Of a DNA stretch of 21,236 nucleotides, positions 3,851-19,550 are shown piece by piece (the first letter of the stretch is position 1; each line of letters starts with the position of its first letter). The stretch comes from a bacterium (GTDB lineage: Bacteria; BMS3Abin14). The stretch covers positions 1,313-22,548 of the forward strand of contig JARGFV010000033.1 in NCBI GenBank assembly GCA_029210545.1, read 5' to 3'. The notes beneath the pieces are model-generated. The model made no database searches. It was not told where the DNA came from and worked only from the letters and a program-made list of their open reading frames with translations. Made by a program: the position numbers and the translations under genes.

Positions 3851-5244
3851 TTCTCCTCCCCAAGATCGTCACCGAAGGATGCGGGCATCAGCACCATGGC
3901 CCTGAGCATGCTCAATCCCGTTCCCCGCAATGCGGGGAAAAGGAAACAGGCACCGTGGACCTGTACCCAATAGGCGATCAGGGAGGCGGTCACCGCTCCC
4001 ATGCCGCCGTATACCGGGATCAGTATGAGGTTCAAGGCGACGTTTATCAAGGCTCCGAGCACCGAGCTTGCCATGTGAAGGCGAGTCCAGTTCATCGTGG
4101 TCAGAAAGGCCGTGCGGGCCAGGCCCAGGTTCACGAACAGCACTGTGATCAGGAGCCACCGGAGCATGGGAACAGCCTCCACATAGGCTTCGCCAAAAAG
4201 CAGGAGCACCAGCCGGTCGGCGAGCAGCCACATGGGCACGATGATCATATAGGCGAGGCCAGACATGAGCCGGTAAAAGCTGTGCATACGGCGATCGAGC
4301 AGGGCACGGCTCACCTCCCCGGCCCTGACGATGCTGGGCATGAGTGTGGACTGAAGGATGATCGGTATGAAGTACCAAAGCTCCGTGAGCCTGACAGCCA
4401 CGGAGTAGATCCCCACCTGGCGGTCCCCAAGCATGCCGCCCATCATTACCTGATCGATACGCATGTTGATGACGATGAGGGCAGAGGAGATCAGCAGGGG
4501 CCAGCTATCTGCAAGCAGCTCCCGTACCTGCCCTAAAGCCGGTCTCCATCGGTTTAAAGCCGGCGTGTCCCGGCGCATCAGGTAGACGATGGTGAGGGCC
4601 GCCGCAGCAGAAAGAAGTTCGGCTCCGTAGACCCATCCGAAGGCGACCACCGAGGCCCCGGCCACGATCAGTGCCACCTTTGAGGCCGAAGCAGCAAGGA
4701 ACACGAGTCCCTTGGGCAGAACGGTGAACCGGGATTCAACCCTGGACTGGTTATAGTAATCCACCACGTCGAAGGATTGGAAGACCATCCCCGCCGCGAC
4801 AGCCAGAACGAGGCTGCGGACAGTGGCGTCACCTGGGCGTATCACGCCGACGGCGATTCCGGCAGCGGCAAAGGCGGCCACCCCTCCGATCAGCATGGGC
4901 AACATGGAACTGGCCATGACAGGACCCGCATCCCCGGGTCTTTTCACCAGTTCCCGGACCGCGACCCGCTCCAGGCCGAGGCTGCGAATGGGAGAGAACA
5001 GGAAGGTGAAGGCGATAGCGTAGCTGTAAACCCCGAAACTCTCAGGGCCGAGGTAGCGGGCGAGCCAGACACCAACGACAAGACCGGCACCCATTCGAAC
5101 CACCCGGTCCCCGAAAAGCCAGGCTGTATTGGAAGAGATCTTACGCCGGTTTTCCGTTCCCGAAGTGATCTCGGCCAGGGAGGACGGTACCAGCCTTGAC
5201 AAAAAACCGGACAGGACGCTCTTACCCCGTGGGGAGGTTGTCAC
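3847..5244 (-). CDS. Polysaccharide flippase (Wzx/MOP superfamily)
   Basis: The 465-residue protein is almost entirely hydrophobic, with about 12 or more membrane spans. After a short basic leader it shows NTAWLFGDRVVRMGAGLVVG and WLARYLGPESFGVYSYA, the hallmark N-terminal region of Wzx-type polysaccharide exporters. Wzx proteins move undecaprenyl-diphosphate-linked repeat units from the cytoplasmic to the periplasmic leaflet. The start is GTG, overlapping the upstream TGA (GTGA), with AGGAGG seven bases before it. Its place between the glycosyltransferases and methyltransferases fits an O-antigen, capsule or exopolysaccharide locus using the Wzx/Wzy route. No Wzy polymerase could be identified with confidence. 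Confidence 0.88.
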   Translation of the reverse strand: MTTSPRGKSVLSGFLSRLVPSSLAEITSGTENRRKISSNTAWLFGDRVVRMGAGLVVGVWLARYLGPESFGVYSYAIAFTFLFSPIRSLGLERVAVRELVKRPGDAGPVMASSMLPMLIGGVAAFAAAGIAVGVIRPGDATVRSLVLAVAAGMVFQSFDVVDYYNQSRVESRFTVLPKGLVFLAASASKVALIVAGASVVAFGWVYGAELLSAAAALTIVYLMRRDTPALNRWRPALGQVRELLADSWPLLISSALIVINMRIDQVMMGGMLGDRQVGIYSVAVRLTELWYFIPIILQSTLMPSIVRAGEVSRALLDRRMHSFYRLMSGLAYMIIVPMWLLADRLVLLLFGEAYVEAVPMLRWLLITVLFVNLGLARTAFLTTMNWTRLHMASSVLGALINVALNLILIPVYGGMGAVTASLIAYWVQVHGACFLFPALRGTGLSMLRAMVLMPASFGDDLGEEK

Positions 5245-6953
5245 CTGAATGCCTCCTGACCACCCAGGGGGTAGATCAGGACACGCTCATCCTGGTAGAC
5301 AGGCCTGAGCCCGGCGAAGCGCCCGGCATGATCCTTTTCCATGATGACGAAATCCAGACGATGCTTCCGGGACGCTTCCATGAAATCAGCCGGTGTCCTG
5401 GAGCGGTAGAAGGCGGCGGAACGGGCCCCTGTCCAGCTCCCTGAAATTTCCTTCAATTGGGCCGCGCTTCCGTAAAGGCGGGCATAACGGTCGGTGTACT
5501 CAGCGAAAAAATCCTCCCGGAAGGGGAAACCATTGTTGGCGTAAACCGGTCTGCGGGTAAACACCGGGAGGAAAAGGTTGAGGTACCCCGGATACACCGC
5601 AAAGGTGGACTTTTCCGGAGTCGAGGCGATCCATTTGAACAGCCCGCCGTAATGACGCGTGACCCGGCTTTCCGGATCGTCAATAAGGACCGGAGAGAGG
5701 ATCGATGTCACGAGAACAACGGCAGCCAGAACAAGCCCCGTGACCGGCCACACGGGGAAGGGCCGGGCCTGACGGCCGACAGGGACCGAAAAGACCCACC
5801 TTCCGGACATCGCATCCGCCGCATCTGCCAGCATCATGGACCAGCCCATGACCACCATGAGGTAGCCGAAAATGGTGAACCTTATGGGCCCGAGAACCGC
5901 GACCTGCTTGACAGGAAACACCACCACGAAAAACCACTGCGCGGCCAGGCTTCCCGTATAGGCTGCCGTAAAAAGCGCAGCGGGAGCAAACCTGGCCAGA
6001 TCCCGTCGGCGGGCGAAGTAGACCAGCGGCAGGATCATGCACATAGTGACCACCGTAAAGCTTCGGTACCATGGCCAACTGGTCAGCGTGCCAAAGGCTG
6101 ACGGCAGGTAGTGACTGGGATGCCTTTCCACAACATAGGTACGCACGAACTCGGCGGCGTTTATCTTCAGGTCAGGAGGGAACATGAGCGAAACGGCCAT
6201 TCCCGCGAGGAACGCTGTCATCCCCACCATGGCCAGCCTGGGCCTGGATGTGATGCCCACCCTGGACAGGATCACCACGGCGGCAAGAAAGATCCCGATG
6301 GCCGGGTGGATCAGACACGAAAGGGCCAGGAGTCCAAGACCTGCCGCAAAGAGAACTGCCCCCGACTCTGCGACAAGGATGACACCTGTCATACCGATGA
6401 GAAGGGACAGGGATTGAGGGGTGGCGTCAACCTTGTACGGCTTGAACCAGGCCACCGACAGGTACTCCCCGAGCCGGGTGGACACGATAAGAACGATACC
6501 GAGAACCGCCACACATATGGCCACCAGGCTTCCTTGCCAACTGCGGAAGCGGTCGGCAGTAAGCCGCCAGGTTGTGAGGAAATAAAGCGGGGGGAAAGCC
6601 AGTGCGCACAAGAGCTTCATTCCAAACAGGACCTGGTACCAGCCCCATCCGAGGAGAGCGCCTGAAGACAGGACCAGTTTCCCGAATACATGCCGCGGGT
6701 TCGGGGCAGCGCTCGCTTCCGTGAAGAAATCCCCCCTGAGAAAATCCGGATCGGCAGCCCTTTCAAAATAGAGCGCCATGTCAAGGGCCGGCCATTCGAA
6801 GGCGGTGCTCCCGGATGCAAGGAACTGCTGGAACCCGCGCAGGGCAAGGGGGTAACAGATAGCCGCCAGAAGGAATGGCTGCCACCGGTTGCCTTGAAAC
6901 AGCCGGATGAGCCAAGGAAGCTTCTCCACCCACCCGCTCTGATCATTTATCAC
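5241..6953 (-). CDS. Large multi-span membrane protein, possibly GT-C type
   Basis: The protein is about 570 residues, with some 10-11 hydrophobic segments spread over the first 430 and then a hydrophilic C-terminal domain that begins after a last span (GLVLAAVVLVTSILSPVLI). A DPDFLRGDFFTEA segment in the first large loop and a C-terminal RLDFVIMEKDH...VLIYPL pattern recall bacterial GT-C-like or DUF6798-type membrane proteins, but I cannot name a family with certainty. It could be a polyprenyl-phosphate-sugar-dependent transferase, a polymerase or an unknown glycan-locus membrane protein. Two in-frame GTG codons are possible starts. AGGAG sits directly against the first (6962) but eight bases before the second (6953), so the second is preferred. 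It ends by overlapping the flippase start. Confidence 0.7.
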   Translation of the reverse strand: MINDQSGWVEKLPWLIRLFQGNRWQPFLLAAICYPLALRGFQQFLASGSTAFEWPALDMALYFERAADPDFLRGDFFTEASAAPNPRHVFGKLVLSSGALLGWGWYQVLFGMKLLCALAFPPLYFLTTWRLTADRFRSWQGSLVAICVAVLGIVLIVSTRLGEYLSVAWFKPYKVDATPQSLSLLIGMTGVILVAESGAVLFAAGLGLLALSCLIHPAIGIFLAAVVILSRVGITSRPRLAMVGMTAFLAGMAVSLMFPPDLKINAAEFVRTYVVERHPSHYLPSAFGTLTSWPWYRSFTVVTMCMILPLVYFARRRDLARFAPAALFTAAYTGSLAAQWFFVVVFPVKQVAVLGPIRFTIFGYLMVVMGWSMMLADAADAMSGRWVFSVPVGRQARPFPVWPVTGLVLAAVVLVTSILSPVLIDDPESRVTRHYGGLFKWIASTPEKSTFAVYPGYLNLFLPVFTRRPVYANNGFPFREDFFAEYTDRYARLYGSAAQLKEISGSWTGARSAAFYRSRTPADFMEASRKHRLDFVIMEKDHAGRFAGLRPVYQDERVLIYPLGGQEAFR

Positions 6954-6964
6954 CTTTTTCACTC

Positions 6965-9136
6965 CTAACTGCTCCAGCTCACCTTTTCCGAGACACAGAT
7001 GAGAAACAGCAGTTGCAGGCAGCCTGGGAGTCCATCGGTAAACTCAAACTGGGGTGCGATCTCTTCGAGGTTAGGGATGACCGTCCGGGCAACGGAGGAC
7101 AAACCGGCGGCTTCAACGCTGCCCGAAATAACGAGTGCCTGCCACTTGGCGTCGACATAAGGTTCGTGCTCGATGTGCAGGGTCTCATAGCGGCTGAGTT
7201 CCTGCATCGCCCTCGCAAGGCCAAAACTGTTTACCAGCATCACGTGCAGGTCAACCTCGATCACGGTATCCAACGCCAGGTCCTCAACTTCACTCTTCGT
7301 CATCCAGTGAACGATGATGTCGGCGTAGGCTCTCTGGGGGATGATGAAATTCGCGCGATCAGGCTCCCTTTCCTGGAGGGAGTATAATACCTCCTCAGGC
7401 CTGTATCCTCGCTCCCGCACATCCCGCCGGATTTTCCAGTATCTGCGAAGTTTCTCGTCAGGGTCGAGAAAAACTTTCAGGTCATACAGGTTCCGCATGG
7501 TCTCCATGGACAGGGAATGAAGTCCCTGGTAGACGACATACTGATCAGGGTCCAGTGGCCAGGCCTCTGTGAACTGCCCGGTGGAATGGTCGTAACTGCC
7601 CTTGATGATGGTCTTTCCATCATGGACAGCGATGGCATGTTCCTGCTGCAGGTGGAGTTCGTTGGCATGAACATCGAGATGAGTGAAAACTTGCCACATC
7701 TCGTGGCCTCTCGGCCAGCGGTGGTAATCGTCCCCCGCCACTGACGTGACCCGTTCCCTGCCGAGGGCCTGTGATATGAGCTCAACAAAACTATCCTTGC
7801 CCGAAGCGCTGTCGCCTGCCACACCGATCATGAATGGAGTGTTTCTCATGCGGTAAACAGCGTTACTTCTCACACCGAACAAGTACATATTGAGAACGAT
7901 CCCGGCCAGGGACACCTCCATCATTGTGTAAGCAAGGTTAACCGCGATACCCGCCTTGACCGGTCCCAGGGGCCCCTCAAGGAGCATCAGCGGTTCCTTA
8001 ACTGATGCCAGGGCCGGGAAAGTCACACTCCAGGCGTCGAACAGGTCCGAACCGCGGCTCATCCAGAAGAACACCAGGTAGGAGATAGAGTAGGCATGGT
8101 AGGGGGTCTGATAGGTCCTGCCGGATCTGCAGAGGAAAAATACCACGAAGGGCAGTGACCAGAGAAAATAACCGGGACGGGGTGGAATGAGCAGGACAAA
8201 CACCGAGAACAGGACTCCGATGTACAGGATAAACAGGTCCCAGTTCTTGCGTGCGTATGCGGTAAACCGGAACCAGAGAACGATAATGGCGCATGGCGCC
8301 AGGAGCAGGGACAGTTCCTGGGGCCCCACAGGGATGGAAAAGGCGAAAAGACGGGATTGCTCTGCTGTACCGAACACCATGGCACGAAATGCGTAACTTC
8401 CCAGGTAGGGCGCCATGGGGAGGAGGAAGGAGACAAGGGAGACGCCAAGACCCTGTAAAGCCCGGAACAGCCCGACCCGGTGCACAAGGTAGATGAGAAC
8501 GAAGGGCCAGGCAGCCAGAAGGTGGGTCTTCGCACAGGTGGCCAGCCCGAGAAGGACCATGCCGCCGAGGTTGCGGTTCTCCTTTAGAAGAGTGAGGGCC
8601 ACCATGAAGATCGCCGTTGGAATGATGTCCAGCTGCCCATGCCAGTAACAGATGTAGATGACCACCGGTGAGCACCAGTAATACAGGAGGATCCGCTTTA
8701 CCCGGTGAGGGAACCAGTGAACCAGTACCGCAGCTACGACGATGTCTCCAACCAGCAGGGGAAGCCGCATGGTAAGAAGATGCCAGTTGGTCACTACATC
8801 GACACCGCTCTGGAGGAACGGGCTGAGGATGAGCCTCGGGAGACCCAGGACAAGGAGCATTATGGTGGGATAGGGGAAGCTGTTGAGACGACCCATGGCG
8901 AAGAAATACTCCCATGGCGACTCCAGGGGTGCCTCGGCAAACCGGTTAATAAAAGGGACAAACAGGTCGCTCAGGAAGTAGGATGCAGCGGAAAAACCAA
9001 GAAAGAGCTTAAAGGCAAGAAGGACCCAGAAGAATCGGCTCTTGAAAAGAGGGGCCAGCCCGAAGAGGTCCAGCCATCGCCATGATCTAATCGGGCCGTG
9101 ATCGACATCCATGTTCACCTGTCCCCTCTTCGTCAT
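6965..9136 (-). CDS. Fusion of a GT-C-like membrane domain and a phosphoribulokinase-like kinase
   Basis: From the chosen ATG the protein has 723 residues. Residues about 30-425 form some 9-11 membrane spans, with a WHGQLDIIPTAIFMVAL segment and GLATCAKTHLLAAWPF like those in GT-C mannosyl/glucosyltransferases (Alg8/PIG-M type). Residues about 434-723 are a P-loop kinase: Walker A GVAGDSASGKDS (438-449), DDYHRW (469-474), YDHSTG, YQGLHSL (about 535-541), then KVFLDPDEKLRRYWKIRRD and QRAYADIIVHW. This order matches the phosphoribulokinase/uridine kinase family, closest to phosphoribulokinase, except that the usual EGLH reads QGLH. A GTG at 9238 would overlap the upstream gene by 88 bases; ATG at 9136 follows GGAAAGG, and ATG at 9112 follows AGGTG. 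The role is unknown: probably phosphorylation of a sugar precursor at the membrane, or of the GT-C product. Confidence 0.82.
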   Translation of the reverse strand: MTKRGQVNMDVDHGPIRSWRWLDLFGLAPLFKSRFFWVLLAFKLFLGFSAASYFLSDLFVPFINRFAEAPLESPWEYFFAMGRLNSFPYPTIMLLVLGLPRLILSPFLQSGVDVVTNWHLLTMRLPLLVGDIVVAAVLVHWFPHRVKRILLYYWCSPVVIYICYWHGQLDIIPTAIFMVALTLLKENRNLGGMVLLGLATCAKTHLLAAWPFVLIYLVHRVGLFRALQGLGVSLVSFLLPMAPYLGSYAFRAMVFGTAEQSRLFAFSIPVGPQELSLLLAPCAIIVLWFRFTAYARKNWDLFILYIGVLFSVFVLLIPPRPGYFLWSLPFVVFFLCRSGRTYQTPYHAYSISYLVFFWMSRGSDLFDAWSVTFPALASVKEPLMLLEGPLGPVKAGIAVNLAYTMMEVSLAGIVLNMYLFGVRSNAVYRMRNTPFMIGVAGDSASGKDSFVELISQALGRERVTSVAGDDYHRWPRGHEMWQVFTHLDVHANELHLQQEHAIAVHDGKTIIKGSYDHSTGQFTEAWPLDPDQYVVYQGLHSLSMETMRNLYDLKVFLDPDEKLRRYWKIRRDVRERGYRPEEVLYSLQEREPDRANFIIPQRAYADIIVHWMTKSEVEDLALDTVIEVDLHVMLVNSFGLARAMQELSRYETLHIEHEPYVDAKWQALVISGSVEAAGLSSVARTVIPNLEEIAPQFEFTDGLPGCLQLLFLICVSEKVSWSS

Positions 9137-9150
9137 GGGACCTTTCCGGG

Positions 9151-9882
9151 TTATGCCCGGCTGCTGAATCTGAGCCGGAAGATATAACGTATGGTGGCCA
9201 TTATTGTCCTGAATCTGGACCGGAAAGTTGCCGCCCACCTGGATTCACCGTGAATCCGCTCCCCGAAATGGACGGGGATGGTCCGGATACCATAACCCTG
9301 CCTTCTGGCAATGTACAATACGTAAAGGTCAAACTGGAAACCGTCCGGCGGGTCGCTCAGGAAAGTCAGCAGATCACGTTTGAAGACCTTGGGCTGGGCA
9401 TTGATATCGGAAAGAGATGCTGCAAGCACCGTGGATGCGATCACGGACATTCCCACGGTGATCAGTTTCGCCGCGATGCCGCGCGGATTCGTCCGCAGTC
9501 CTTTTACAACGATCCGGTCCGGATCGGGAGCACGCATTGATTCGTGATAGGCCCTGAAAGGATCGGCCGGACTGCACTGCATGTCGGCATGGGACCAGGA
9601 AAGGTACTCCCCTCTGGCTGCAGACAGCCCGGCAGCGATACCGTGCCCGTATCCTCGGTTGCGTTTGACACGCACGACCCTGGCAAAGGAATACTCGGGC
9701 CGTGAAAGTTCCCTTTCCAGAACAGTGGCCGTTTCGTCTGTACTTCCGTTATCGACAAGGACAAGCTCGGCGGGAAGGTCCTCCCAGACCTCCCGGTAGG
9801 AAGCCAGCAGATCGGGAAGTGAATCGGCCTCATTGTAACAAGGCAACACGATGGACAACCTGGGCGCACCCTCAGAGATCAA
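9151..9882 (-). CDS. Family 2 glycosyltransferase, polyprenyl-phosphate-sugar synthase type
   Basis: This 243-residue GT2 has the opening RLSIVLPCYNEADSLPDLL, the nucleotide-binding LVLVDNGSTDET, a GYGHGIAAGLSAARGEYL segment and HADMQ in the DXD position (DPM1-type enzymes have DADLQ). PKVFKRDLL and the C-terminal HFGERIHGESRW (usually R-x-x-G-xSK/R) also fit the DPM1/polyprenyl-phosphate sugar synthase group. Such enzymes load a sugar on undecaprenyl phosphate to feed GT-C transferases. That suits its position directly before the GT-C-like fusion protein, 14 bases away. The start is TTG, overlapping the upstream gene by 11 bases, behind a GAGGGGGGCGG stretch. The sugar is unknown. Confidence 0.85.
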   Translation of the reverse strand: MISEGAPRLSIVLPCYNEADSLPDLLASYREVWEDLPAELVLVDNGSTDETATVLERELSRPEYSFARVVRVKRNRGYGHGIAAGLSAARGEYLSWSHADMQCSPADPFRAYHESMRAPDPDRIVVKGLRTNPRGIAAKLITVGMSVIASTVLAASLSDINAQPKVFKRDLLTFLSDPPDGFQFDLYVLYIARRQGYGIRTIPVHFGERIHGESRWAATFRSRFRTIMATIRYIFRLRFSSRA

Positions 9883-11464
9883 CTGGACCGCCCCCCTCGC
9901 TTACCGTGTACGGATGGTGGGAAGCTATTGAAAAGTAGCGTTCCCAGTATTCAAAAGTCCGGACATCGTCGGGGGTGCCGAAACAGATGTAGTGGATCAC
10001 ATCGAAGACACATGCCCTCCGCCCGGCGCCAACCAGGAAATCGATGGCCAGATCCACATAAAACTCTCCGTTGATGCGGGCATCCGCGGCGATCATGGCA
10101 TCGGCAGCCTCCAGAAAATAACGGGCCTTGCGGAACCAGAACGCACCTGTCACCCCGGGGTCGCCGGAAACATCCTCTCCCAGCGGCTTTTTACACGACA
10201 CCCCCGTCACTGAACCGTCAATATCCGTCTGAACCCAGCCGTACTGCTCCGGGTTCCGGTTAGCGTGGGGATGGTCCCGGAAGGTCCAGACGAGACAGTC
10301 GATCCCCGGTTCGTTGAGCGCTTCAGACAGCGCACCTTCGTGGTAGACGAAGCCGGCATCACACGGACCGATAAAAAGTGGGGTTTCCATACCCAGTTGA
10401 TCCCTGGCCAGGAGACAGGTGCTCGCCTGCCCTTCCGTGGGCTGTTCAACGACCATGACCTGGACCTTCCTGCCGCCTCTTTCAAGGGCTGGGACCAACC
10501 GGGGATCCTCGAGGTGGCTGGAAAGACACAGGGTGATCCAACGGCTGCAGGGAGGGAACGATCCCATGGAGCGATCCACCATGGGACGTCCTGATACCGG
10601 GATGAGCGGTTTGGGGTCCTCATACTGTTCCCGGACAAACCGCAGACCCTCCCCTGCCATGGGGACAAGCCCCTCCCCAACGCCCTGCCGCGCGGCAGGA
10701 ACCCAGCTGGCCCAATGTGTGAAGTAATCGGACCATTCCTTGTATTCCTCGAGGTCCTCCGGTGTCCCCCACTGGAGAAAGTGTTCCAGTTCGTAGACAA
10801 GGACATCAAGACCGTCCTCAAGGAGGAGGTTGTACGGCAGGCTGGCGTAGTACTCACCTCCCGTGGTGAGCCCCTCTTTATAAGCTCTCTCAAAGTAGTG
10901 TATAAGCATCTGCCCGGTGCGAAAATAGTAGGTTCCGGCCGAGGCAAACTCGTTCATACGATCGTCGGTAAAGGATCCCTTCTCGCGGATCTCCAGGAGC
11001 CGGCCGTTTTTCTCCCGCATGTAAGCGTACAGGTTCGGACCGAGGCTGTGAGGGTGAAAACCACGATACGCTGTAATGCAGCCGTCACAACCTGTCTTCG
11101 ACGTGGTCCTTTTAAAATGGGAGTAATCCCAGGTAACGGAAAAATCGCAGTAGTTAACCACGACCGGGGTATCGTTGCGGACAAACTCCCGGGCCTCGAG
11201 AACTGTGTGTACCGGACCAAGTTTGTGCGGTTCCACCACGGCAATGATGCCCTGGGGCACCAGGTCACTGAGAACCGAGCGCAAGGGGGTTTCCTCCAGA
11301 TGGTCCCTGGCGCAGATGAACAGGAAGTCGGTTTCTCCCGGGTACATGGCCACGACATGTTCGATGATCGGCATGCCGTCTACCTCTATGAGAGGTTTAA
11401 TCTCCCTGAACCCTGCCCTCACAAAGCGGGATCCCCTGCCTGACATGGGAACAACCACCTGCAC
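9872..11464 (-). CDS. Double nucleotidyltransferase (two sugar-1-phosphate nucleotidyltransferase-like domains)
   Basis: This 530-residue protein contains two copies of a nucleotidyltransferase fold. Domain 1 (about 1-248) has VVPMSGRGSRF, KPLIEVDG, NYCDF with the likely metal-binding Asp107, and WGTPEDLEEYKEW. Domain 2 (about 264-512) repeats these as LVPMAGEGLRF, KPLIPVSG, GPCDAG with Asp369, and FGTPDDVRTFEYW. Single-domain relatives join NTP and a sugar or polyol phosphate to give an NDP-activated precursor and pyrophosphate. The glycine-rich loops deviate from GxGTR in both copies, so base and substrate specificity are open. The GTG start shares one base with the aldolase stop (TAGTG) and has AAGGAG eight bases upstream. 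It may perform two successive activations, or one domain may be regulatory. Confidence 0.85.
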   Translation of the reverse strand: MQVVVPMSGRGSRFVRAGFREIKPLIEVDGMPIIEHVVAMYPGETDFLFICARDHLEETPLRSVLSDLVPQGIIAVVEPHKLGPVHTVLEAREFVRNDTPVVVNYCDFSVTWDYSHFKRTTSKTGCDGCITAYRGFHPHSLGPNLYAYMREKNGRLLEIREKGSFTDDRMNEFASAGTYYFRTGQMLIHYFERAYKEGLTTGGEYYASLPYNLLLEDGLDVLVYELEHFLQWGTPEDLEEYKEWSDYFTHWASWVPAARQGVGEGLVPMAGEGLRFVREQYEDPKPLIPVSGRPMVDRSMGSFPPCSRWITLCLSSHLEDPRLVPALERGGRKVQVMVVEQPTEGQASTCLLARDQLGMETPLFIGPCDAGFVYHEGALSEALNEPGIDCLVWTFRDHPHANRNPEQYGWVQTDIDGSVTGVSCKKPLGEDVSGDPGVTGAFWFRKARYFLEAADAMIAADARINGEFYVDLAIDFLVGAGRRACVFDVIHYICFGTPDDVRTFEYWERYFSIASHHPYTVSEGGGPVDL

Positions 11465-12597
11465 TATGACTCTCCTTCCCGAAATTGATCCCGGTCCACG
11501 ACCCCGCGCCTGTACCTTTCAGACTCCATGCATTCGATAAATCGGATCTCCTCCTCCGGAAGAAAAACCGGGTGTCCCTGCAGCCGTGCAATGAGAAAGC
11601 GAACCAGAACGTGAGCGAGCAAGGTCTCCTCCATGGCATCGACAGCATCGGGTGAAGCGGCCCCAAAAACCGTCCCTCCTCCCTTCACAGCCACGGCCAA
11701 CCTGTCCGGGGGGAGATCGGGCATCTCATCAACACACCTTTGGGCCGGGTCGGAGATTTCCGTTTCAATGAGCCGGTGCACACCGTAGACCACGTCGTCA
11801 GGAACTAGAGCTCCTGCATCGCCCGATGACGCCGGATCGCTTCCGTACCTGTTCACAAACACCCTTTTTGAAGCCCTCACTTCAAGGGCAGAACCGGGGA
11901 ACCGTTTGGACAGGGCCGATTTGAGATCACCGCCCCACCGTTTCAAGTGCTCAGGCGGGTCCTCCACACCCAGGCCATCGGGGGGAATGGGCCCGACCAG
12001 GGACTCCGCATGGGCAAGGACACATTCCATGATCGTCCTCACCCGCCGCACATCCCCGCCGTGGACCACCAGCCCGTGGTTCTGGAAAACCAGGATTCCC
12101 TCATTCTCATCAGTACACCAGCTGGCAACCCTGGCACCCAGCTCGACTCCCGGGGGCGCATAGGGAACCCATATTCCTTTGGAAAGGACATCCCGGCCGC
12201 CTTCCAGGCATGCCAGGGAGTTGATTAAAACAGGATGCGTGTGGAGCACCACATCTCCGAGAACCGCATGGAAAAGGGTCTCCAGGGAGGGTCTGAGACC
12301 AGTATCGTCCCTCACTGCCGCGAGCACCATTTTTGAGGACCTTTCCTGGGCAACCTGACGGTCCTCATCTTCCAGCGAGGGCAGGTCGAGAACACCCCGT
12401 ACAGCTGGCAGATACACCTTGACGATACCGGTGGATGGGGTCACATCTGCCAGCCTGGTTCCGGAAGCCTTGACCCACATCCACTGGCCGTCGCCGGATT
12501 TTATGGAAGCGTTTCCACCGCCGCCCTGGACCTGGAGGAGATCCATGCCATAAAGACGACAGACACTCACGAGGTCGTGGATCGCCCGATCAGACAC
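11464..12597 (-). CDS. Class II aldolase/adducin-family protein with C-terminal extension
   Basis: The 377-residue protein starts with a class II aldolase domain (about 1-215). It has QGGGGNASIK (24-33), which forms the phosphate-binding loop, Glu106 in PSLETLFH as the likely catalytic acid/base, and the zinc ligands His119 and His121 (HTHP) and His174 (NHG). Family members split or form sugar phosphates (fuculose-1-P, rhamnulose-1-P) or epimerise ribulose-5-P. All key residues are kept, so activity is likely. The extra 160 residues are not part of a minimal aldolase and I cannot assign them. The start is GTG with GGAGG seven bases before it, overlapping the HAD stop by eight bases. Its neighbours suggest that it supplies or remodels a sugar phosphate for activation by the double nucleotidyltransferase. 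Confidence 0.85.
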   Translation of the reverse strand: MSDRAIHDLVSVCRLYGMDLLQVQGGGGNASIKSGDGQWMWVKASGTRLADVTPSTGIVKVYLPAVRGVLDLPSLEDEDRQVAQERSSKMVLAAVRDDTGLRPSLETLFHAVLGDVVLHTHPVLINSLACLEGGRDVLSKGIWVPYAPPGVELGARVASWCTDENEGILVFQNHGLVVHGGDVRRVRTIMECVLAHAESLVGPIPPDGLGVEDPPEHLKRWGGDLKSALSKRFPGSALEVRASKRVFVNRYGSDPASSGDAGALVPDDVVYGVHRLIETEISDPAQRCVDEMPDLPPDRLAVAVKGGGTVFGAASPDAVDAMEETLLAHVLVRFLIARLQGHPVFLPEEEIRFIECMESERYRRGVVDRDQFREGES

Positions 12598-13303
12598 CTA
12601 GCAGCCTCCCCAGCTCGGCCCAGCTGTTTACGACAGCGTCAGGATCGGAGTGACCGCCCTTTCCGCAGCCCTCGCCGTAACGATCGAACCAGACGGTGAA
12701 GACTCCTGTCTTTTTTCCGGAACCGACATCATCGGTGAGACTGTCTCCCACGATCCAGGTATCTACCGGGCCCATACCAAGTCTTTCCATGGCCAGGAGA
12801 AGAACTGCAGGGTCAGGCTTGTCTGCACCGGCCTCCTCAGAGGTGACAAGGAGATCGACAGCCCCGGACAACCCCAGGTGTTCAAGCTTCAGTAATTGAC
12901 GCTCCGTTGTAAAATTGGATACCCATGCCGATCTTATCCCGGCACTCCTGACCCTGCACAGGACATCTTCGCATCCGCTGTCGGGTTTCATCTGATCGAA
13001 GTAGCCGCTCCAGTATATTTCCTCCAGTTCCCTGGAACAGCCGGTGTCGGTGCGACCAAGCACCGCTTCGAACATGGCCTTGAAATAGAGAAGCCGGCTG
13101 TGAGAAGCAGCCGCACCCCTGATCTGTTCCTTGACCCGTTGACGAGCCCGATCGTATCCATCCAGAAAGGCGGCCTTATCGGCCCAACTCCCTACCATAT
13201 CGACAGAGGCTGACCAGGCCGCGTTGAGTCCCGCCTGGTGACACGGGCTGTAGGCATAAACGGTATTATCGAGATCGAAAAGCACGGATCGGGGCTGAGT
13301 CAT
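12590..13303 (-). CDS. HAD-superfamily hydrolase (probable sugar-phosphate phosphatase)
   Basis: All four HAD motifs are present in this 237-residue protein: LFDLDNTVY with nucleophile Asp10 and acid/base Asp12, WVSNF (motif II Ser129), Lys162 in ADKPDP, and VGDSLTDDVGSG (motif IV, Asp187/Asp192). The alpha-helical cap between motifs I and II places it in HAD-IA. Such enzymes remove phosphate from small metabolites, commonly phosphorylated sugars or glycerol-type compounds. Start and upstream stop share one base (TGATG), so it is translationally coupled to the membrane protein before it. Next to the aldolase and nucleotidyltransferase it probably performs a dephosphorylation step in precursor synthesis. 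The exact substrate is not visible. Confidence 0.88.
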   Translation of the reverse strand: MTQPRSVLFDLDNTVYAYSPCHQAGLNAAWSASVDMVGSWADKAAFLDGYDRARQRVKEQIRGAAASHSRLLYFKAMFEAVLGRTDTGCSRELEEIYWSGYFDQMKPDSGCEDVLCRVRSAGIRSAWVSNFTTERQLLKLEHLGLSGAVDLLVTSEEAGADKPDPAVLLLAMERLGMGPVDTWIVGDSLTDDVGSGKKTGVFTVWFDRYGEGCGKGGHSDPDAVVNSWAELGRLLGV

Positions 13304-14295
13304 CAGTTGTTTTCCTTATTCAACCGGATAGACATGAACTCGCGATCCACCGCGATCCACCACAGGAGAAGAAACCCGAAACCGAGGATACTGACGAACC
13401 ACAGTGTGCATGCCCGAACCAGGATGACCGGGATAACAGCCGTGGCCGCCGGAACACCAACTGCTGCAAGAAGCAGAAGCATGGCCGCTTCCATGCTTCC
13501 GATACCGCCTGGCATCATGGACAAGGCACCGATAATCGTCGAAAAGCCGTAAATAAAAAAAATCGTAACAACCGGGACCCCTATACCTACTCCCTCCAGT
13601 ATCAAGGCAAAAGCCACAGCCTCACAGGCCCAGGCAACAAGAGCGAGGGCCAGTCCGGTCACAAAGGGAACAAACCGGAAAAGGCTCACAGCCGATGAGA
13701 GGAACCGTTCTACCCTCTCTACCATGGCTTTTGCGGGAGCGACCCTTGACGCCATGGCGGCGACCATTCTGCGGGCAGGGGAGTATACGATGAGAAAGGT
13801 GAGCAGGGCGATGACCGCTCCGCTGACGAGCAGGTAGACTGAAGCGTCCACGAAAACAGTCATCCCGCCCAGGGCCAGTAAAAACACGGCTATCAGGTCC
13901 CCGAGCCGTTCGGCAAAGAGTATGGCGAAGGTCTCGGTGATGGACGTGCCGTACCGGGATCGGAGAAGGCCTGCCTTGACGATCTCTCCCATTTTGCCCG
14001 GGGTGGCTGTAAAAGCAAAGCTTGCGAGAAATACCAGGAAATTGTGGCCGACAGGTACCGTCCAGTTCAAGGTGCGTGTAAAAAAGTGCCAACGGTACGC
14101 TCTGATGAACCAACCGGTCAGGACCAGCCCCAGAACGAGGGGCAAGGTGGAGCCCGAGCGAACCATGGACAGGGAACTGCGCAGTGCCCCGGACCCGGAC
14201 CAGACAGTCAGCCCGATGTAGAGTACCATGGCCGCCGTCATGATCAGGATAACCCGCCTTATCCAGGTGCGTATTGTCTCTGCCGTTCCGCGCAA
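13303..14295 (-). CDS. Lysylphosphatidylglycerol synthase-type (UPF0104/AglD-like) integral membrane protein
   Basis: The 330-residue protein has seven or eight hydrophobic spans and the family marks FAFTATPGKMGEIVKAGLL, FAERLGDLIAV and the C-terminal SMMPGGIGSMEAAM. These belong to the LPG_synthase_TM family, which includes flippase domains of MprF and dolichol-phosphate/AglD-like proteins of glycan loci. In glycan loci such proteins are thought to help translocate or handle lipid-linked sugars; the mechanism is not established. No ATG is available at the 5' end. The first usable codon is a TTG two bases after an AGGTGA stretch, so the start is uncertain, and Met19 (IMTAAM) is an alternative. 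Confidence 0.82.
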   Translation of the reverse strand: MRGTAETIRTWIRRVILIMTAAMVLYIGLTVWSGSGALRSSLSMVRSGSTLPLVLGLVLTGWFIRAYRWHFFTRTLNWTVPVGHNFLVFLASFAFTATPGKMGEIVKAGLLRSRYGTSITETFAILFAERLGDLIAVFLLALGGMTVFVDASVYLLVSGAVIALLTFLIVYSPARRMVAAMASRVAPAKAMVERVERFLSSAVSLFRFVPFVTGLALALVAWACEAVAFALILEGVGIGVPVVTIFFIYGFSTIIGALSMMPGGIGSMEAAMLLLLAAVGVPAATAVIPVILVRACTLWFVSILGFGFLLLWWIAVDREFMSIRLNKENN

Positions 14296-14296
14296 A

Positions 14297-14875
14297 TCAC
14301 CTCATCCAGTCATCACAAAAATCGCTGCACACCGCATCGATGGGCATCCCTGATAGAAGCCGGCGGTATTCCCGGATACTCTCCCGGGGATGGCCCTGGA
14401 GTTCCGGGGACACCAGGCAGATCTGAAAATGCTTCCTCAACTGCTCGTACGTACCCCTGTCGAGGGGGAGTTGGGTGAAACAGTCCACCCAGACCCATCT
14501 GGCCTGGCCTGCAAAAGCCAGGGCAAATTCGACAGGCTCGAACTCGGAAAAACGTACGGCGATATTATGGTTCCCTTCCCTGGCCAGGCGCACGAGAGTC
14601 GGGTTGGCCAGGTCGAGGAAAAAATAATCGGACACCTGGTACCGCTGGGCAAGTTCTTCTATACGCCCTTCTATCCCGTCGCACTTGGTGTTGAAAATGG
14701 CCAGGGCGTGATCGTATGCATTCAGGAACTTTTCCAGCGTCTCCCCTCCGAGAAAGGGGTCGTGAACGAGTCTTAGTTCACCGTCGTAATCCCTGATATC
14801 GATCTCGATTCCCCGATCCCGGGGTACCTCTAACAGTTGCTTCACCGTGTTCACCCTGTGTTCAACAAGAAGCAT
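14297..14875 (-). CDS. Glycerophosphodiester phosphodiesterase-like (PLC TIM-barrel) protein
   Basis: This 192-residue protein opens EHRVNTVKQL and continues GIEIDIRDYDGELRLVHDP. His6, Glu24/Asp26 and His38-Asp39 sit as in the GDPD/PI-PLC barrel (HRG..NT, ExD, HD). It is shorter than ordinary GDPDs (about 240-260). It also contains FFLDLANP, an aromatic RWVWVDCF segment and SPELQG, which I associate with a distinct subgroup from polysaccharide loci rather than with lipid catabolism. The function there is not known to me; phosphodiester cleavage or lyase chemistry on a precursor is possible. It starts at ATG behind a weak ribosome-binding site and runs to two bases before the next start. Confidence 0.72.
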   Translation of the reverse strand: MLLVEHRVNTVKQLLEVPRDRGIEIDIRDYDGELRLVHDPFLGGETLEKFLNAYDHALAIFNTKCDGIEGRIEELAQRYQVSDYFFLDLANPTLVRLAREGNHNIAVRFSEFEPVEFALAFAGQARWVWVDCFTQLPLDRGTYEQLRKHFQICLVSPELQGHPRESIREYRRLLSGMPIDAVCSDFCDDWMR

Positions 14876-15423: not shown

Positions 15424-15444
15424 GTTCCGTTCAGTGAACGGAAC
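15424..15444. repeat. Perfect palindrome over the hydA stop codon
   Basis: GTTCCGTTCA and TGAACGGAAC are exact reverse complements around a single G. The stop codon of the alpha subunit lies inside. No T-run follows on the minus strand, so it is not a canonical intrinsic terminator; mRNA stabilisation or a mobile-repeat origin is possible. Confidence 0.8.
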
Positions 15445-16756
15445 AGGAAATGCAGGGGTCGTAGGCGCGGGCGATGACCTGGAGGAGGAACGGCAGATCC
15501 TTTCCGTTCAGGGGGGCCATCCCCGGCAGCAGGAGTCCGTCCCTCCCGATCATTGAACCGTATCTCTCGGTGATCAGCCGGAGGTCCCGCTCGATGTTGG
15601 ACAGGTTCTGGGCGGTGGGGGTGATGATGTCGGCGTCCACGATAGTGCCCTCTTCATCGAACTCGTACTGATGGTAGAGGATCCCTCTCGGCGCCTCGAT
15701 GAGCCCGATACCTGTTCCGGAGCGGGGGACGATCTCCGGCCGTTTTTCTTCCGTTGGAAATGCGCCATCCAGGAGCATCTGCAGGTTCCTGGCCGCGGTC
15801 TCGAGAGAATAGACAAGTTCAACGGCCTGCGCCAGCCCGTTGAACAGCGGGTTCCCTTGACCGAAGGGCCCTTGCTGACCGCCAAACCGGTCGAGGGCGA
15901 CCCTGGCCTGCCCCTCCAGCCTGTCTCCTGCCAGAACGACTCTGGACTGGGCGCCCACTGCAAAAGGGCGTTTCGAGTACAGGGACTGTTTGGCATGGGA
16001 GTGTGAAACGACACGTTCATGGCAAATCGAAGCGAACTCTTCGACACTGTATGTAGAACCGTCGGAGGCCGCGATCCGCCGTGACACGAACCCGTAACCT
16101 TCAGGCGGGAGGAGGGCGAGGTAGACCGTCTCCTCCTCCAGGACCCGTGGTACGGGGATCCCGGCCATGAGTTCCACGAGGATGGGGATCATCTCCATCC
16201 CCATCCTGACCTTCTCCACCAGGTTTTCGAGGGCCGAAGGGGAAGGCATCCTGCCGAAACCGCCCACCAGGACGTTGGGAGGATGGACGGCCCGTCCTCC
16301 CACGGTCTCCTGGATAAGGTTCCCCAGCTGTTTAAGGGCGAGCCCCATCCTGGCGGCGTGGCCGTGGTCCCTGGCCATGTCGAGGGCCGACGGGTACCCC
16401 AGGTAGTCAGGAAGTACCAGGAGAAAAAGGTGGAGGGCATGGCTCTCGATGTTCTCCCCCTGGAGCAGAAGGTCCCTGAGCAGCCGGGTCCTGGGGGAGA
16501 TCTCGATGCCGAAGGCATCCTCCACGGCTATCTGGGCGCACACCGCGTGGGATGCGCTGCAGATGGCGCAGACCCTTGAAACGATGGGGGCCAGGGTGTG
16601 ATACGGTTTGCCCCTGACGAGGGCTTCGTAGAACCTGCCGCCCTCGAAGATGTCCATGTGGACATCCCGGACCTTGCCTCCGTCAAGGAACACTGTTATT
16701 CCCCCGTGTCCCTCGACCCTCGTCAGGTGTTTTATTTCAATGATTTTATCACCCAA
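15431..16756 (-). CDS. hydA: [NiFe]-hydrogenase large (alpha) subunit, group 3b type
   Basis: This about 441-residue protein holds the NiFe(CN)2CO active site. The N-terminal L1 motif is RVCAICSASH (Cys63, Cys66 and His70 from the chosen start) and the C-terminal L2 motif is DPCISCSVH (Cys435, Cys438, His441); IKHLTRVEGHGG is the usual opening. The Ala in the CAIC motif and the length fit group 3b, soluble NAD(P)-linked hydrogenases and sulfhydrogenases. The reading frame stops directly after the L2 His, so the C-terminal peptide that a maturation protease normally removes is absent. Two starts are possible: GTG at 16765, which itself lies within GAGGTG, or TTG at 16756, properly spaced behind AGAGGTGA and preferred here. 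It ends the operon. Confidence 0.93.
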   Translation of the reverse strand: MGDKIIEIKHLTRVEGHGGITVFLDGGKVRDVHMDIFEGGRFYEALVRGKPYHTLAPIVSRVCAICSASHAVCAQIAVEDAFGIEISPRTRLLRDLLLQGENIESHALHLFLLVLPDYLGYPSALDMARDHGHAARMGLALKQLGNLIQETVGGRAVHPPNVLVGGFGRMPSPSALENLVEKVRMGMEMIPILVELMAGIPVPRVLEEETVYLALLPPEGYGFVSRRIAASDGSTYSVEEFASICHERVVSHSHAKQSLYSKRPFAVGAQSRVVLAGDRLEGQARVALDRFGGQQGPFGQGNPLFNGLAQAVELVYSLETAARNLQMLLDGAFPTEEKRPEIVPRSGTGIGLIEAPRGILYHQYEFDEEGTIVDADIITPTAQNLSNIERDLRLITERYGSMIGRDGLLLPGMAPLNGKDLPFLLQVIARAYDPCISCSVH

Positions 16757-16792
16757 TTTTTTCACCTCTGTGAAAAAAATTATCCTCAGCCG

Positions 16793-16823
16793 GAAAATCC
16801 AGGATGGTGTTCCTGAAATTTTC
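16793..16823. repeat. Imperfect hairpin between delta and alpha hydrogenase genes
   Basis: GAAAAT and AGGA pair with TCCT and ATTTTC around a small internal loop and a six-base apex. It begins at the delta stop codon and occupies half of the 66-base gap, the only real gap within the hydrogenase operon. It may tune alpha-subunit translation or mRNA decay. Confidence 0.5.
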
Positions 16824-17590
16824 TAGTCGAACTCCTTTTCCAGCCTCTCCCCCATTCCGGCCGGGGTCGAGAAGAGCAGCATCTCCTTCCGAACGACTTC
16901 CCTGGTCACCCCCCTTGCGGCCAGGAACTCCATCTCCGCCCGGTAATAAGCGTCCTCCACCGGTCCCCGGCAGCCGAGGCAGGGAACATCCAGGCTCGGG
17001 CAGCGGGCTTTGCACCCCCCCCGGGTCAGGGCGCCGCAGCATACCTGTTCCTTTTCGATGACCAGGCAGACGTTTTCCCGGATCCGGCAGTCGGCGCAAA
17101 CGGGGGTCGTTGGGATCTCCGGAAAGCTTCCTTTCAGGAGACACGATATTGTCTCCAGAAGCTGCTCCTTTTCCACCGGGCACCCGGGCAGCATGAAATC
17201 CACATCCACATAGGTGGAAAGCGGCCTGGCCCTCTGGATCGCGAACAGATCCCCTTCGGTTCCGTACACTTTCTCCTTGAGGATCTCCGGATCGAGCCGC
17301 TGGTCCATGGCAGCCACACCACCGAAACAGGCGCAGGTACCCAGGGCCACAAGGTTATGGGCACGGCCACGGACCTCCCTGAGCAGGGCAAGGTCCCGGG
17401 GCTGGCAGACGGATCCCTCCACGAAAGCGACCTCGATCTCTCCTCCCACTTCTGTGGTGGAGGCCATTTTGAACGATTTCATGCGGACTTTTCCGGCGAT
17501 GGCGAGCAGCTCATCCTCGCAGTTGAGGAGGGTCAGCTGGTCTCCGGCGCATCCGGTAAGGCCGAAGATGCCGACCGTCAGCTGATCCAC
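16823..17590 (-). CDS. hydD: [NiFe]-hydrogenase small (delta) subunit
   Basis: The true protein is 255 residues from a GTG preceded by AAGGAG at six bases; the reading frame extends 75 residues further upstream but that part is antiphase to the gamma gene. It carries the electron-relay iron-sulfur clusters. GLTGCAGDQ (10-18), GTCACFGG (84-91) and PGCP (135-138) surround the proximal cluster. The Cys-rich second half (PVCADCRIRENVC, VCCGALTRGGCKARC, DVPCLGC) should hold the medial and distal clusters. Asp17 stands where many small subunits have the second Cys of CxxC. It passes electrons between the NiFe site in alpha and the flavin/NAD(P) gamma subunit. It overlaps the gamma stop by 13 bases. 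Confidence 0.92.
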   Translation of the reverse strand: MDQLTVGIFGLTGCAGDQLTLLNCEDELLAIAGKVRMKSFKMASTTEVGGEIEVAFVEGSVCQPRDLALLREVRGRAHNLVALGTCACFGGVAAMDQRLDPEILKEKVYGTEGDLFAIQRARPLSTYVDVDFMLPGCPVEKEQLLETISCLLKGSFPEIPTTPVCADCRIRENVCLVIEKEQVCCGALTRGGCKARCPSLDVPCLGCRGPVEDAYYRAEMEFLAARGVTREVVRKEMLLFSTPAGMGERLEKEFD

Positions 17591-18441
17591 GGCTCTCCTT
17601 CTCTCATTTCGATAAGCTCCGGCATATTGAAAGCGTCCCAGTAGTTGAAGATAGGACCGTCCACACACGTATAGCGGTAACCAACACCGCAGTGCCCGCA
17701 CTTGCCGATCCCGCATTCCATGCGCCGTTCCAGGGACATGTAGACGAGCCTCTTGCTGAGTCCTTCCGCCAGAAGAGCGCTCACGGCATACCGATAGAAG
17801 ACCGGCGGCCCGCACATGGCCGCGAAGGTCCGGGTGGGCCTGGTGACCGACCCCGGGATAAGGTCGGTGACAAAACCCGTTCTGTCTCCGAACCGTTCCT
17901 CGTAGGGACCGGCTCCCGTTATCTCCTGAACGATAAGCTGGATATTGATGTCCCTGGAAAGGCCCAGGAGATCGTCGATAAACAGGAGTTGGGCGTCGGT
18001 ACCGGCTCCATACAGAACGGTCACCTGGCCGAACTCTCCCGGCAGGTCGACAGCGTAGTTCACCAGAGATCGCAGGGGCACTATCCCCAGCCCGCCGGCC
18101 AGGAGGACGAGGTCATTCCCCCGCATCCTTTCCAGCGGAAAACCGTTGCCGAAGGGTCCCCTGATCCCCACGCGGTTGCCTGCTCTCAGCCCGGCTATCG
18201 CCGCCGTCAGCCGTCCAACCTTGCGGATGCACATCTCCAGGGTTCCCGGGCGTGTGGGGCTCGACGACACCGAGACGGGAGCCTCCCCGATACCGTGAAC
18301 GGAAATCTGGAAAAACTGTCCGGGACTGTATTCAGGGACACCGCCTCCCCCGCTGGGAGAGAGGGAAACGAAAAAGTGGCCAGGGATGATCTCCCTGATC
18401 TCGAGGATGGTCCAGTCGGCCGTAAGGTAGAGGTTATTCAT
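17578..18441 (-). CDS. hydG: Hydrogenase gamma subunit, FAD/NAD(P)-binding reductase with [2Fe-2S]
   Basis: This 287-residue protein of the ferredoxin-NADP reductase/PyrK type has an N-terminal flavin-binding barrel with APVSVSSSP (54-62) and GPFGNGFPL. The nucleotide-binding half starts at LLAGGLGIVPLRSL (113-126), with MCGPP later. A C-terminal [2Fe-2S] loop has Cys243, Cys248, Cys251 and Cys259 (CGIGKCGHCG...YTC). In sulfhydrogenase-type complexes this subunit exchanges electrons with NAD(P)H. The name follows Pyrococcus hydBGDA and is not the [FeFe]-hydrogenase maturase HydG. Start ATG overlaps the beta stop by eight bases. Preference for NADP or NAD cannot be read from the sequence. Confidence 0.92.
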   Translation of the reverse strand: MNNLYLTADWTILEIREIIPGHFFVSLSPSGGGGVPEYSPGQFFQISVHGIGEAPVSVSSSPTRPGTLEMCIRKVGRLTAAIAGLRAGNRVGIRGPFGNGFPLERMRGNDLVLLAGGLGIVPLRSLVNYAVDLPGEFGQVTVLYGAGTDAQLLFIDDLLGLSRDINIQLIVQEITGAGPYEERFGDRTGFVTDLIPGSVTRPTRTFAAMCGPPVFYRYAVSALLAEGLSKRLVYMSLERRMECGIGKCGHCGVGYRYTCVDGPIFNYWDAFNMPELIEMREGEPWIS

Positions 18442-19492
18442 CGACGGGGAGCCTTTCGCGGGCCAGGGACTGGAAGACCTCCACGAAGTGGATCCCGGTG
18501 GGGCACAACTTGATGCACCGGCCGCAGCCTACACAGGAGGGTTTGCCGAACGCCTCGGCAAAACCGACCTGCTTGTGGTAGTAGCGGTTCTGGATGCGCT
18601 CGGACCGGTGAGGTCTGAAGTTGTGATCGCCGGCAACCCGGGCAAAGTCCCTGTAAAGGCACGCGTCCCAATTCCTCACCCGGGAAGATCCGCCTTCAAG
18701 GTCGTTGGTGTCCCTGATGTTGAAGCAGGTGCAGGTAGGGCAGCCCAGGCTGCACACACCGCAGGCGAGGCACTGTTCGCCGAGGCGGTCCCAGAGGGGA
18801 TCGGCCTGGTGGAGTTTGATGGCCTGCGGCAGGATCGAGGGGTCCAGGTCCAGGGTGTAGGCGCTTTCCCGGCGCTCCGTGTACTCGAGAAGGGCCTCCA
18901 GCTCCTCCGGCTCCGCCTCGGGGAGGGTGTCGGCGCGATCGGCGAGCATGATGTCTCCTTCCACGGTTCCGAGGGAGACGAAAAACACCTTTTCCCCGCG
19001 GTCCTGATTTTCCGGATCGATATCGTGGAAGAAAAGGTCGAATCCGGAAGCGGCCGAGTCACAGTCCATGGAACGGCAGAAACAGTGCTCGTCGGGAAGG
19101 CATGAAAGCCCGACGATCCTCAGGCGGGCCCTGCGCCTCTGATAGTACCAGTCCGGCTTGTCGAAGGATGAGAAAAAGGTGTCGAGGATCCGGATGCCGT
19201 TGATGTCGCAGGGATGGACCCCGAACAGGACCAGATCCCTGGCCGGCAGATCCGGCACTGTCGTCTCCCCCGAGGGGGCCCGGTTGAAGAGAACCTCCTC
19301 GGGTGGAAAGACGAACTTCTTGGGGGGGAGGACGGTTCGGGTGTAGGACAGGTCCAGCTCTTCGAAGGTCGTATAGGGCTCAAACCGGTGAACCTGCTTA
19401 CCGGCCGGCATCGGCACGTAAAGGTCGACGGTCCCGCTCAACTCGTCTAGCCACTTTTTCAACTGGTCACGGCTGATCTTCAGAACACGCAA
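18434..19492 (-). CDS. hydB: Hydrogenase beta subunit, two-cluster ferredoxin-like protein
   Basis: This 352-residue protein resembles the sulfhydrogenase beta and anaerobic sulfite reductase A families. It has an N-terminal VLKISRDQLKKWLDEL, a conserved VHPCDI (92-97), a Cys-rich SCLPDEHCFCRSMDC, and two C-terminal [4Fe-4S] sites, CLACGVCSLGCPTCTC (241-256) and CVGCGRCIKLCP (320-331). It relays electrons from gamma towards ferredoxin or sulfur acceptors. The frame could start ten codons earlier at a TTG (19522), but that overlaps the promoter -10 box. TTG at 19492 lies nine bases after AGGAGG, so it is chosen. It is the first gene of the operon, and its order before gamma, delta and alpha matches Pyrococcus hydBGDA. 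Confidence 0.9.
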   Translation of the reverse strand: MRVLKISRDQLKKWLDELSGTVDLYVPMPAGKQVHRFEPYTTFEELDLSYTRTVLPPKKFVFPPEEVLFNRAPSGETTVPDLPARDLVLFGVHPCDINGIRILDTFFSSFDKPDWYYQRRRARLRIVGLSCLPDEHCFCRSMDCDSAASGFDLFFHDIDPENQDRGEKVFFVSLGTVEGDIMLADRADTLPEAEPEELEALLEYTERRESAYTLDLDPSILPQAIKLHQADPLWDRLGEQCLACGVCSLGCPTCTCFNIRDTNDLEGGSSRVRNWDACLYRDFARVAGDHNFRPHRSERIQNRYYHKQVGFAEAFGKPSCVGCGRCIKLCPTGIHFVEVFQSLARERLPVDE

Positions 19493-19501
19493 GGAAGCCC
19501 C

Positions 19502-19507
19502 CCTCCT
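19502..19507 (-). promoter_or_regulatory. Ribosome-binding site deciding the hydB start
   Basis: The minus strand reads AGGAGG, a perfect anti-16S match, nine bases before TTG 19492. It argues against the longer reading frame that begins at 19522. Confidence 0.75.
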
Positions 19508-19521
19508 ATGCTCAGGGTACA

Positions 19522-19550
19522 AGTATAACTTGGTATGGGGGGAGTATCAA
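19522..19550 (-). promoter_or_regulatory. Sigma-70-type promoter of the hydrogenase operon
   Basis: On the minus strand, -35 TTGATA (19550-19545) and -10 TATACT (19527-19522) are separated by exactly 17 bases; each differs from consensus by one base. Transcription would begin near 19515, leaving a leader of about 23 bases that contains the AGGAGG site. No operator was recognised. Confidence 0.78.

Follow-up and report, generated by a model that had tools for sequence, protein, structure and literature searches.

A GT-C membrane domain fused to a phosphoribulokinase-like kinase recurs with sugar-activating genes in bacteria and archaea

Introduction

What does a phosphoribulokinase (PRK)-like kinase do when it is built into a membrane protein of a glycan locus? 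PRK belongs to the textbook machinery of carbon fixation, and a GT2 enzyme, a flippase and a GT-C enzyme make up the established arrangement of Gtr systems. The two meet in a stretch of bacterial DNA of 21,236 nucleotides (the window, by which we mean the whole stretch analysed). A first-pass annotation had placed here, in a glycan locus, a GT-C domain followed by a PRK-like kinase, and had known of no characterised enzyme of such architecture. The results presented here indicate that the fusion is a real, widespread and apparently undescribed enzyme: neither a description of the fusion or its gene cassette nor a characterised counterpart was found in the open-access literature searched. The superfamilies of both halves and the three-component scheme were known before; what seems new is the fusion and its cassette. 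Its recurrence with the same sugar-activating genes in bacteria and archaea suggests that it starts and finishes a pathway adding a sugar to cell-surface glycans. The pathway proposed below is built on folds, residues and co-occurrence, taken from sequence and structure comparison, from which every reaction in it is inferred.

Results

One reading frame joins a GT-C fold to a kinase

The fusion gene (6965..9136, minus strand) is translated without interruption into 723 aa, as the first-pass annotation had noted. An alternative in-frame GTG at 9238 would give a fusion of 757 aa. We consider the ATG at 9136 to be the better start, because the GT2 gene upstream has its stop 14 nt before it, a GGAAAGG sequence precedes it, and residues 1-16 are disordered anyway. 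The AlphaFold model of the fusion, built on 56 relatives, had a pLDDT of 93.4 and a pTM of 0.83 and was confident except for those first 16 residues, also across the join between the two halves. The GT-C domain occupied residues ~28-430 (7847..9055, minus strand), its last helix (382-426) running into the PRK-like kinase domain of residues ~431-723 (6968..7846, minus strand). The former was assigned from VIA alignment and from Pfam GT87, ALG6 and ALG3 matches in relatives, and the latter from PF00485, VIA Z scores to PRKs and PRK-type substrate residues. Model and alignment thereby confirmed both halves of the protein as annotated. Our own reading of the model, the hydropathy profile and the charge bias gave about 12 membrane helices, rather than the roughly 10 spans counted before, in an N-in/C-in arrangement. 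With this topology, the kinase would be cytoplasmic and the conserved residues of the GT-C half would face the outside.

The kinase half is of the PRK type

All of the kinase motifs previously picked out (GDSASGKDS, DDYH, GLH, RRYWKIRRD and QRAYAD) were present. That a complete P-loop kinase follows the membrane part was borne out by Pfam PRK (PF00485), which matched residues 436-617 (E 1.8e-32), was complete over the model and was found in all 56 relatives, and by VIA, in which the C-terminal half aligned with the PRK structures 9qkp (Z 31.2, rmsd 2.4, 281 residues) and 5b3f (Z 29.2). The subfamily model PRK07429 gave 212.7 bits on the window kinase (cut-off 236), and udk/TIGR00235 gave 72.7 bits, below its cut-off of 220.3. 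A tree was built from 56 fusion kinases, 14 PRKs and 26 uridine kinases, with groups relabelled by score, and in it the fusion kinases formed one clade with no other kinase inside (SH-like support 0.865). This clade stood on the PRK side, apart from the uridine kinases, as sister to the 14 sampled PRKs and not nested within them.

In M. hungatei PRK, ribulose 5-phosphate (Ru5P) is bound via R59, Y98, H100, H55 and K151, and ATP via R154 (PMC5241800). By alignment, the equivalents in the window kinase are R476, Y515, H517, H472, K568 and R571, respectively, and the identical residue stood at all six positions in 56/56 fusions and 14/14 PRKs. All or most uridine kinases have other residues at four of these positions (H55, R59, H100 and K151, corresponding to H472, R476, H517 and K568). 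Residue 471, beside the substrate site, was D or M in most fusions and Y in PRKs and uridine kinases alike, and H540 was invariant in the fusions and present in only 3 of the 14 PRKs. Judged by its sequence, the kinase is PRK-like, not uridine-kinase-like. It resembles type II PRKs (Methanospirillum 5b3f, cyanobacterial 9qkn-9qkp) in its fold over ~280 residues, its P-loop, its Ru5P-binding residues and its position as a sister clade. In contrast to them, it is joined to a membrane domain, lies in a glycan cassette and occurs in genomes without RuBisCO where this was checked. RuBisCO was found in none of 8/8 carrier genomes checked, the window's own and seven others, and a RuBisCO or carbon-fixation role was rejected on this ground. 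The window's own genome encodes no second PF00485 protein.

The membrane half has a GT-C fold with an unusual first loop

Five kinds of GT-C enzyme aligned with residues ~28-430, over lengths of 268-366 residues, with VIA Z scores of 27.9 for GPI-MT-I with Dol-P-Man, 26.1 for ALG3, 24.1 for ALG6, 19.4 for PimE and 18.9 for ArnT. Two features that define the fold, ~7-13 membrane helices and a small external domain after the first of them, were both seen. This fold call is based on the full-length model; the N-terminal half modelled alone, without an alignment, reached a pLDDT of 45. Pfam gave no match on the N-terminal half of the window protein, and in the 56 relatives it recognised GT87 in 11, Alg6_Alg8 in 3 and ALG3 in 3. 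Residues F59, F62, F87, Y89, Q168, D170, K203 and W326 were invariant and lay mostly on the predicted periplasmic side. GT-C enzymes usually, though not universally, hold their catalytic base as an acidic residue in the first external loop. No conserved acid was found in this loop of the fusions, where no acidic column reached 50% in residues 50-92 of 56 sequences; outside these residues, D131 and D170 were invariant in the same set. The GT-C half also carries an HGQLD motif, which we take to resemble GT-C loop motifs. The likeness to polyprenyl/dolichyl-phosphate-sugar GT-C enzymes (the five above and Pfam GT87) lies in the fold and in this motif. The fusion differs from them in that its first external loop lacks a conserved acid, in its C-terminal kinase, predicted to be cytoplasmic, and in that most members fall below Pfam recognition.

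The fusion lies in a conserved cassette

The fusion is one of eight minus-strand genes that follow one another head to tail between 14875 and 5241 of the window, with their ends overlapping or nearly touching. They start with a short GDPD/PI-PLC-like phosphodiesterase of 192 aa (14297..14875), followed by a flippase-like LPG_synthase_TM protein (13303..14295; PF03706, E 5e-43), a HAD phosphatase (12590..13303) and a class II aldolase with a RhaD/FucA-type zinc site and a C-terminal extension (11464..12597; PF00596, E 3e-15; E106, H119, H121 and H174 invariant). Then come a tandem sugar nucleotidyltransferase of 530 aa (9872..11464), assigned from PF12804 and a tandem alignment, and a DPM/GtrB-like GT2, a candidate polyprenyl-phosphate sugar synthase (9151..9882; PF00535, E 2.3e-21). 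The fusion is next, and the last gene (5241..6962) encodes a second large membrane protein of 573 aa, which has no Pfam match and has relatives in three other cassettes; at a guess, it is possibly another membrane transferase. In many other loci, the nucleotidyltransferase is encoded as two adjacent genes of ~260 aa. A hydrogenase set (15431-19522; NiFe large and small subunits, FAD/NAD reductase and 4Fe-4S subunit) adjoins the cassette in the window and is apparently unrelated to it.

Conservation was assessed in 52 loci, among the matches listed, with at least 5.5 kb on either side of the fusion. These loci were picked by the fusion alone and, therefore, the partner genes were not selected for. 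The nucleotidyltransferase and the HAD were each present in 49/52 loci, the GT2 in 47/52 (possibly an overcount, since the glycan loci may hold further, unrelated GT2 genes), the class II aldolase in 44/52, with no recognisable aldolase in the other 8, and the GDPD in 43/52. All five core partners occurred in 37 of the 52 loci and at least four in 44. One locus that was scored without partners (L048) has them further along the same contig (L144). As to the three-component (Gtr-type) set, the GT2 was accompanied by GtrA in 20/52 loci and by the LPG_synthase_TM protein in the window; a flippase was not recognised in every locus. The LPG_synthase_TM protein takes the place that GtrA has in many cassettes, two unrelated families being apparently interchanged. 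Extra large membrane proteins of variable kind accompany many cassettes, and the fused GT-C is constant.

The nearest family of the window HAD is that of RuBP 5-phosphatases: model NF053830 scored 198.3 bits, below its cut-off of 330 and best by 103 bits (next model 95.6), and 25/25 HAD members matched this RuBP-phosphatase model. A haloarchaeal RuBP phosphatase produces ribulose-1-P from RuBP (PMC9700705). The aldolase, which is similar to the aldolases for rhamnulose- and fuculose-1-P, retains the zinc-site and catalytic residues of class II. In the short GDPD-like protein, H6/R7 are nearly invariant and E24, D26, H38 and K64 invariant, a GDPD-like pattern. Profile comparison and a PDB search gave nothing useful for this assignment, which is based on the motif residues, on the database annotation of orthologues as GDPD/PI-PLC and on replacement by a canonical GDPD. 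The replacement was seen in Bacteroidota cassettes in which the aldolase was not found (L077:11995-12789, L092:12165-12881, L088:6665-7390 and L067:3674-4468), where a canonical GDPD (PF03009) stands instead of the short protein; this supports a putative phosphodiesterase role for the latter. In one genome (G267, 95% complete), GDPD, GT2, tandem nucleotidyltransferase and aldolase genes lie side by side (L142:482-4555) and no fusion was found anywhere.

The fusion is widespread but sparse

A profile of six sequences run against the genome collection gave at least 80 loci, in Bacteroidota, Bacillota, Pseudomonadota, Myxococcota, Omnitrophota, Cyanobacteriota/Melainabacteria, CPR bacteria and DPANN archaea; a relative of some kind is encoded in 506 candidate stretches, of which many probably hold plain kinases. 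The two-domain order was sought in other genomes and found there: among the matches listed, at least 71 ORFs of 655-770 aa have the same order, from bacteria and archaea alike. The fusion was present in 3 of 386 sampled genomes, the window's own included, and in none of 11 other genomes of the window's phylum. In another phylum (that of G270), 6 of 74 genomes carry full-length fusions and the remaining matches are weak and single-domain. The first-pass annotation had allowed that the halves might always be separate genes elsewhere, or the join an assembly artefact. The halves are fused in at least 71 copies from independent assemblies, and no split form was found among the 386 sampled genomes or the 74 of the G270 phylum, in a scan that favours full-length matches.

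Copies of the fusion also occur on plasmids of Azospirillum brasilense, Hirschia baltica and E. coli, and archaeal and bacterial fusion kinases are intermixed in the tree. This sparse, mixed and plasmid-borne distribution suggests that the fusion has spread horizontally. A phage origin was rejected, with a single phage record covering the kinase part only. In E. coli, the whole cassette lies on an IncR plasmid with IS elements nearby (L046:6022-14984) and is found in 2 of 5426 complete genomes. Lachnospiraceae genomes (L105 and L107) carry two different copies of the fusion separated by no more than about 10 kb.

Discussion

On balance, we lean towards reading the fusion as an enzyme with two functions, encoded in a cassette dedicated to surface glycans. 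The cassette would be a three-component glycosylation system (GT2, flippase and GT-C) with its own sugar supply, in which the first enzyme is fused to the last. The kinase would phosphorylate a pentulose 5-phosphate, probably Ru5P, at C1, and the HAD would take off the 5-phosphate, leaving a 1-phosphate for the aldolase to reshape and the nucleotidyltransferase to activate. The GT2 would load the sugar onto polyprenyl phosphate, the flippase would turn the polyprenyl-linked sugar over, and the GT-C half, or a second membrane transferase, would attach it to a glycan. With the first and last steps fused, the donor may be supplied at the membrane and in step with its consumption. Such a dedicated donor pathway is proposed by analogy, from a C5-to-C1 phosphate relay followed by a nucleotidyltransferase, as in heptose logic, together with the GT2/flippase/GT-C pattern. 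The earlier suggestion that the kinase phosphorylates a sugar precursor would fit the PRK-type substrate residues and the adjacent phosphatase and nucleotidyltransferase genes. Direct coupling of phosphorylation to transfer, also suggested, is unsupported, because the conserved GT-C residues are predicted to be periplasmic and the kinase cytoplasmic, which puts the predicted active sites on opposite sides of the membrane. PRK phosphorylates C1 of its ketose, a non-anomeric carbon; a nucleotide donor made directly from such a product would therefore be unusual, and an isomerisation is either missing from the scheme or done by the aldolase. A bolder proposal, which we offer tentatively and rate below an even chance, is that bacteria and archaea share an unrecognised pathway, passed on horizontally, in which RuBP or a closely similar pentulose bisphosphate is formed for glycan synthesis and not for fixing CO2. 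The product would be a lipid-linked donor of a new kind, carrying a pentose or a pentulose, and one protein would catalyse both the pathway's first step, in the cytoplasm, and its last, in the periplasm.

Alternatively, the kinase might act not on Ru5P but on another sugar phosphate or polyol that the aldolase forms from DHAP plus an aldehyde; the same architecture, with the aldolase first, would then produce a donor of a novel kind, a ketose or a polyol. In favour of this, ketose 1-phosphates are the substrates of the aldolase family, residue 471 near the substrate site differs from PRK, and nucleotidyl transfer to a ketose primary phosphate has a precedent in CDP-6-D-fructose (PMC10918830). 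However, the kinase retains all six named PRK residues for Ru5P and ATP and the HAD is nearest to RuBP phosphatase, and we hold this reading to be rather doubtful. It is unlikely that the GT-C half lacks transferase activity and serves as an anchor, transporter-like or regulatory, in a fusion that does no more than tether the kinase to the membrane, with the transfer left to the separate membrane proteins of each locus. The acid-free first external loop and the variable large membrane proteins beside a constant fused GT-C are compatible with an anchor, but the many invariant GT-C residues, mostly predicted periplasmic, are as expected of a working site and the fold matches donor-bound GT-C enzymes.

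Because some relatives are labelled uridine kinase in database records, a nucleoside (uridine-type) salvage kinase fused by chance to a membrane protein was also considered. This is very improbable given PRK-type residues at all diagnostic positions, the placement on the PRK side and the conserved sugar-activation neighbours, and the diagnostic residues and the tree led us to reject it. An assembly or annotation artefact joining two genes, for which the 241 contigs of the window's genome and the absence of the fusion from the 11 other genomes of its phylum might speak, has next to no probability; it was rejected on the full-length copies in independent assemblies and on the Azospirillum, Hirschia and E. 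coli plasmids, and the model is confident across the join.

The proposed bifunctional pathway shares parts with several known systems. The heptose bisphosphate relay of GDP-heptose synthesis consists of HddA, GmhB and HddC. The cassette would follow the same order, with a kinase, then a HAD removing the distal phosphate, then a nucleotidyltransferase, but with a non-homologous kinase fold, a probable pentulose substrate and, in addition, an aldolase and a GDPD. The haloarchaeal non-carboxylating pentose bisphosphate pathway (PMC9700705) likewise pairs a HAD of the RuBP-phosphatase kind with a class II aldolase, and RuBP is the likely shared intermediate; in the haloarchaea, RuBP comes from nucleosides and is degraded, whereas the cassette combines a PRK-like kinase with glycan genes and has an aldolase of another subfamily. 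Finally, an analogous three-component scheme, with a different lipid-loading enzyme, adds pentofuranoses (PMC11127046). As in these GT136 systems and in Gtr-type periplasmic glycosylation generally, lipid-loading enzyme, flippase and GT-C are encoded together. In contrast to the GT136 systems, the cassette donor is probably loaded by the GT2 and not by a PRPP-dependent polyprenyl phosphoribose synthase, the GT-C is fused to the kinase, and kinase, HAD, aldolase, nucleotidyltransferase and GDPD are added. Papers on xylulofuranose O-antigens held no matching gene set.

A close PRK sister fused to a glycosyltransferase, in hosts without RuBisCO where checked, suggests that pentulose bisphosphates have a second use. 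The cassette is carried by cultured bacteria (Flavobacterium, Eudoraea, Paenibacillus, Acetobacter and Lachnoanaerobaculum) and by plasmids, and the sugar should therefore be findable through gene deletion and reading of the glycan. The cassette genes also provide an exact marker with which genomes can be searched for the modification. A related but distinct module, in capsule-type or plasmid loci, combines a distant GDPD-like protein with a HAD and one or two nucleotidyltransferases, without aldolase or fusion (L143:9146-12216, and also L130, L131, L133 and L134). It was seen in G180, Azospirillum lipoferum, Pseudomonas alcaligenes, Acetobacter persici and Rhizobium tumorigenes, and may be a second sugar pathway that shares the phosphodiesterase step.
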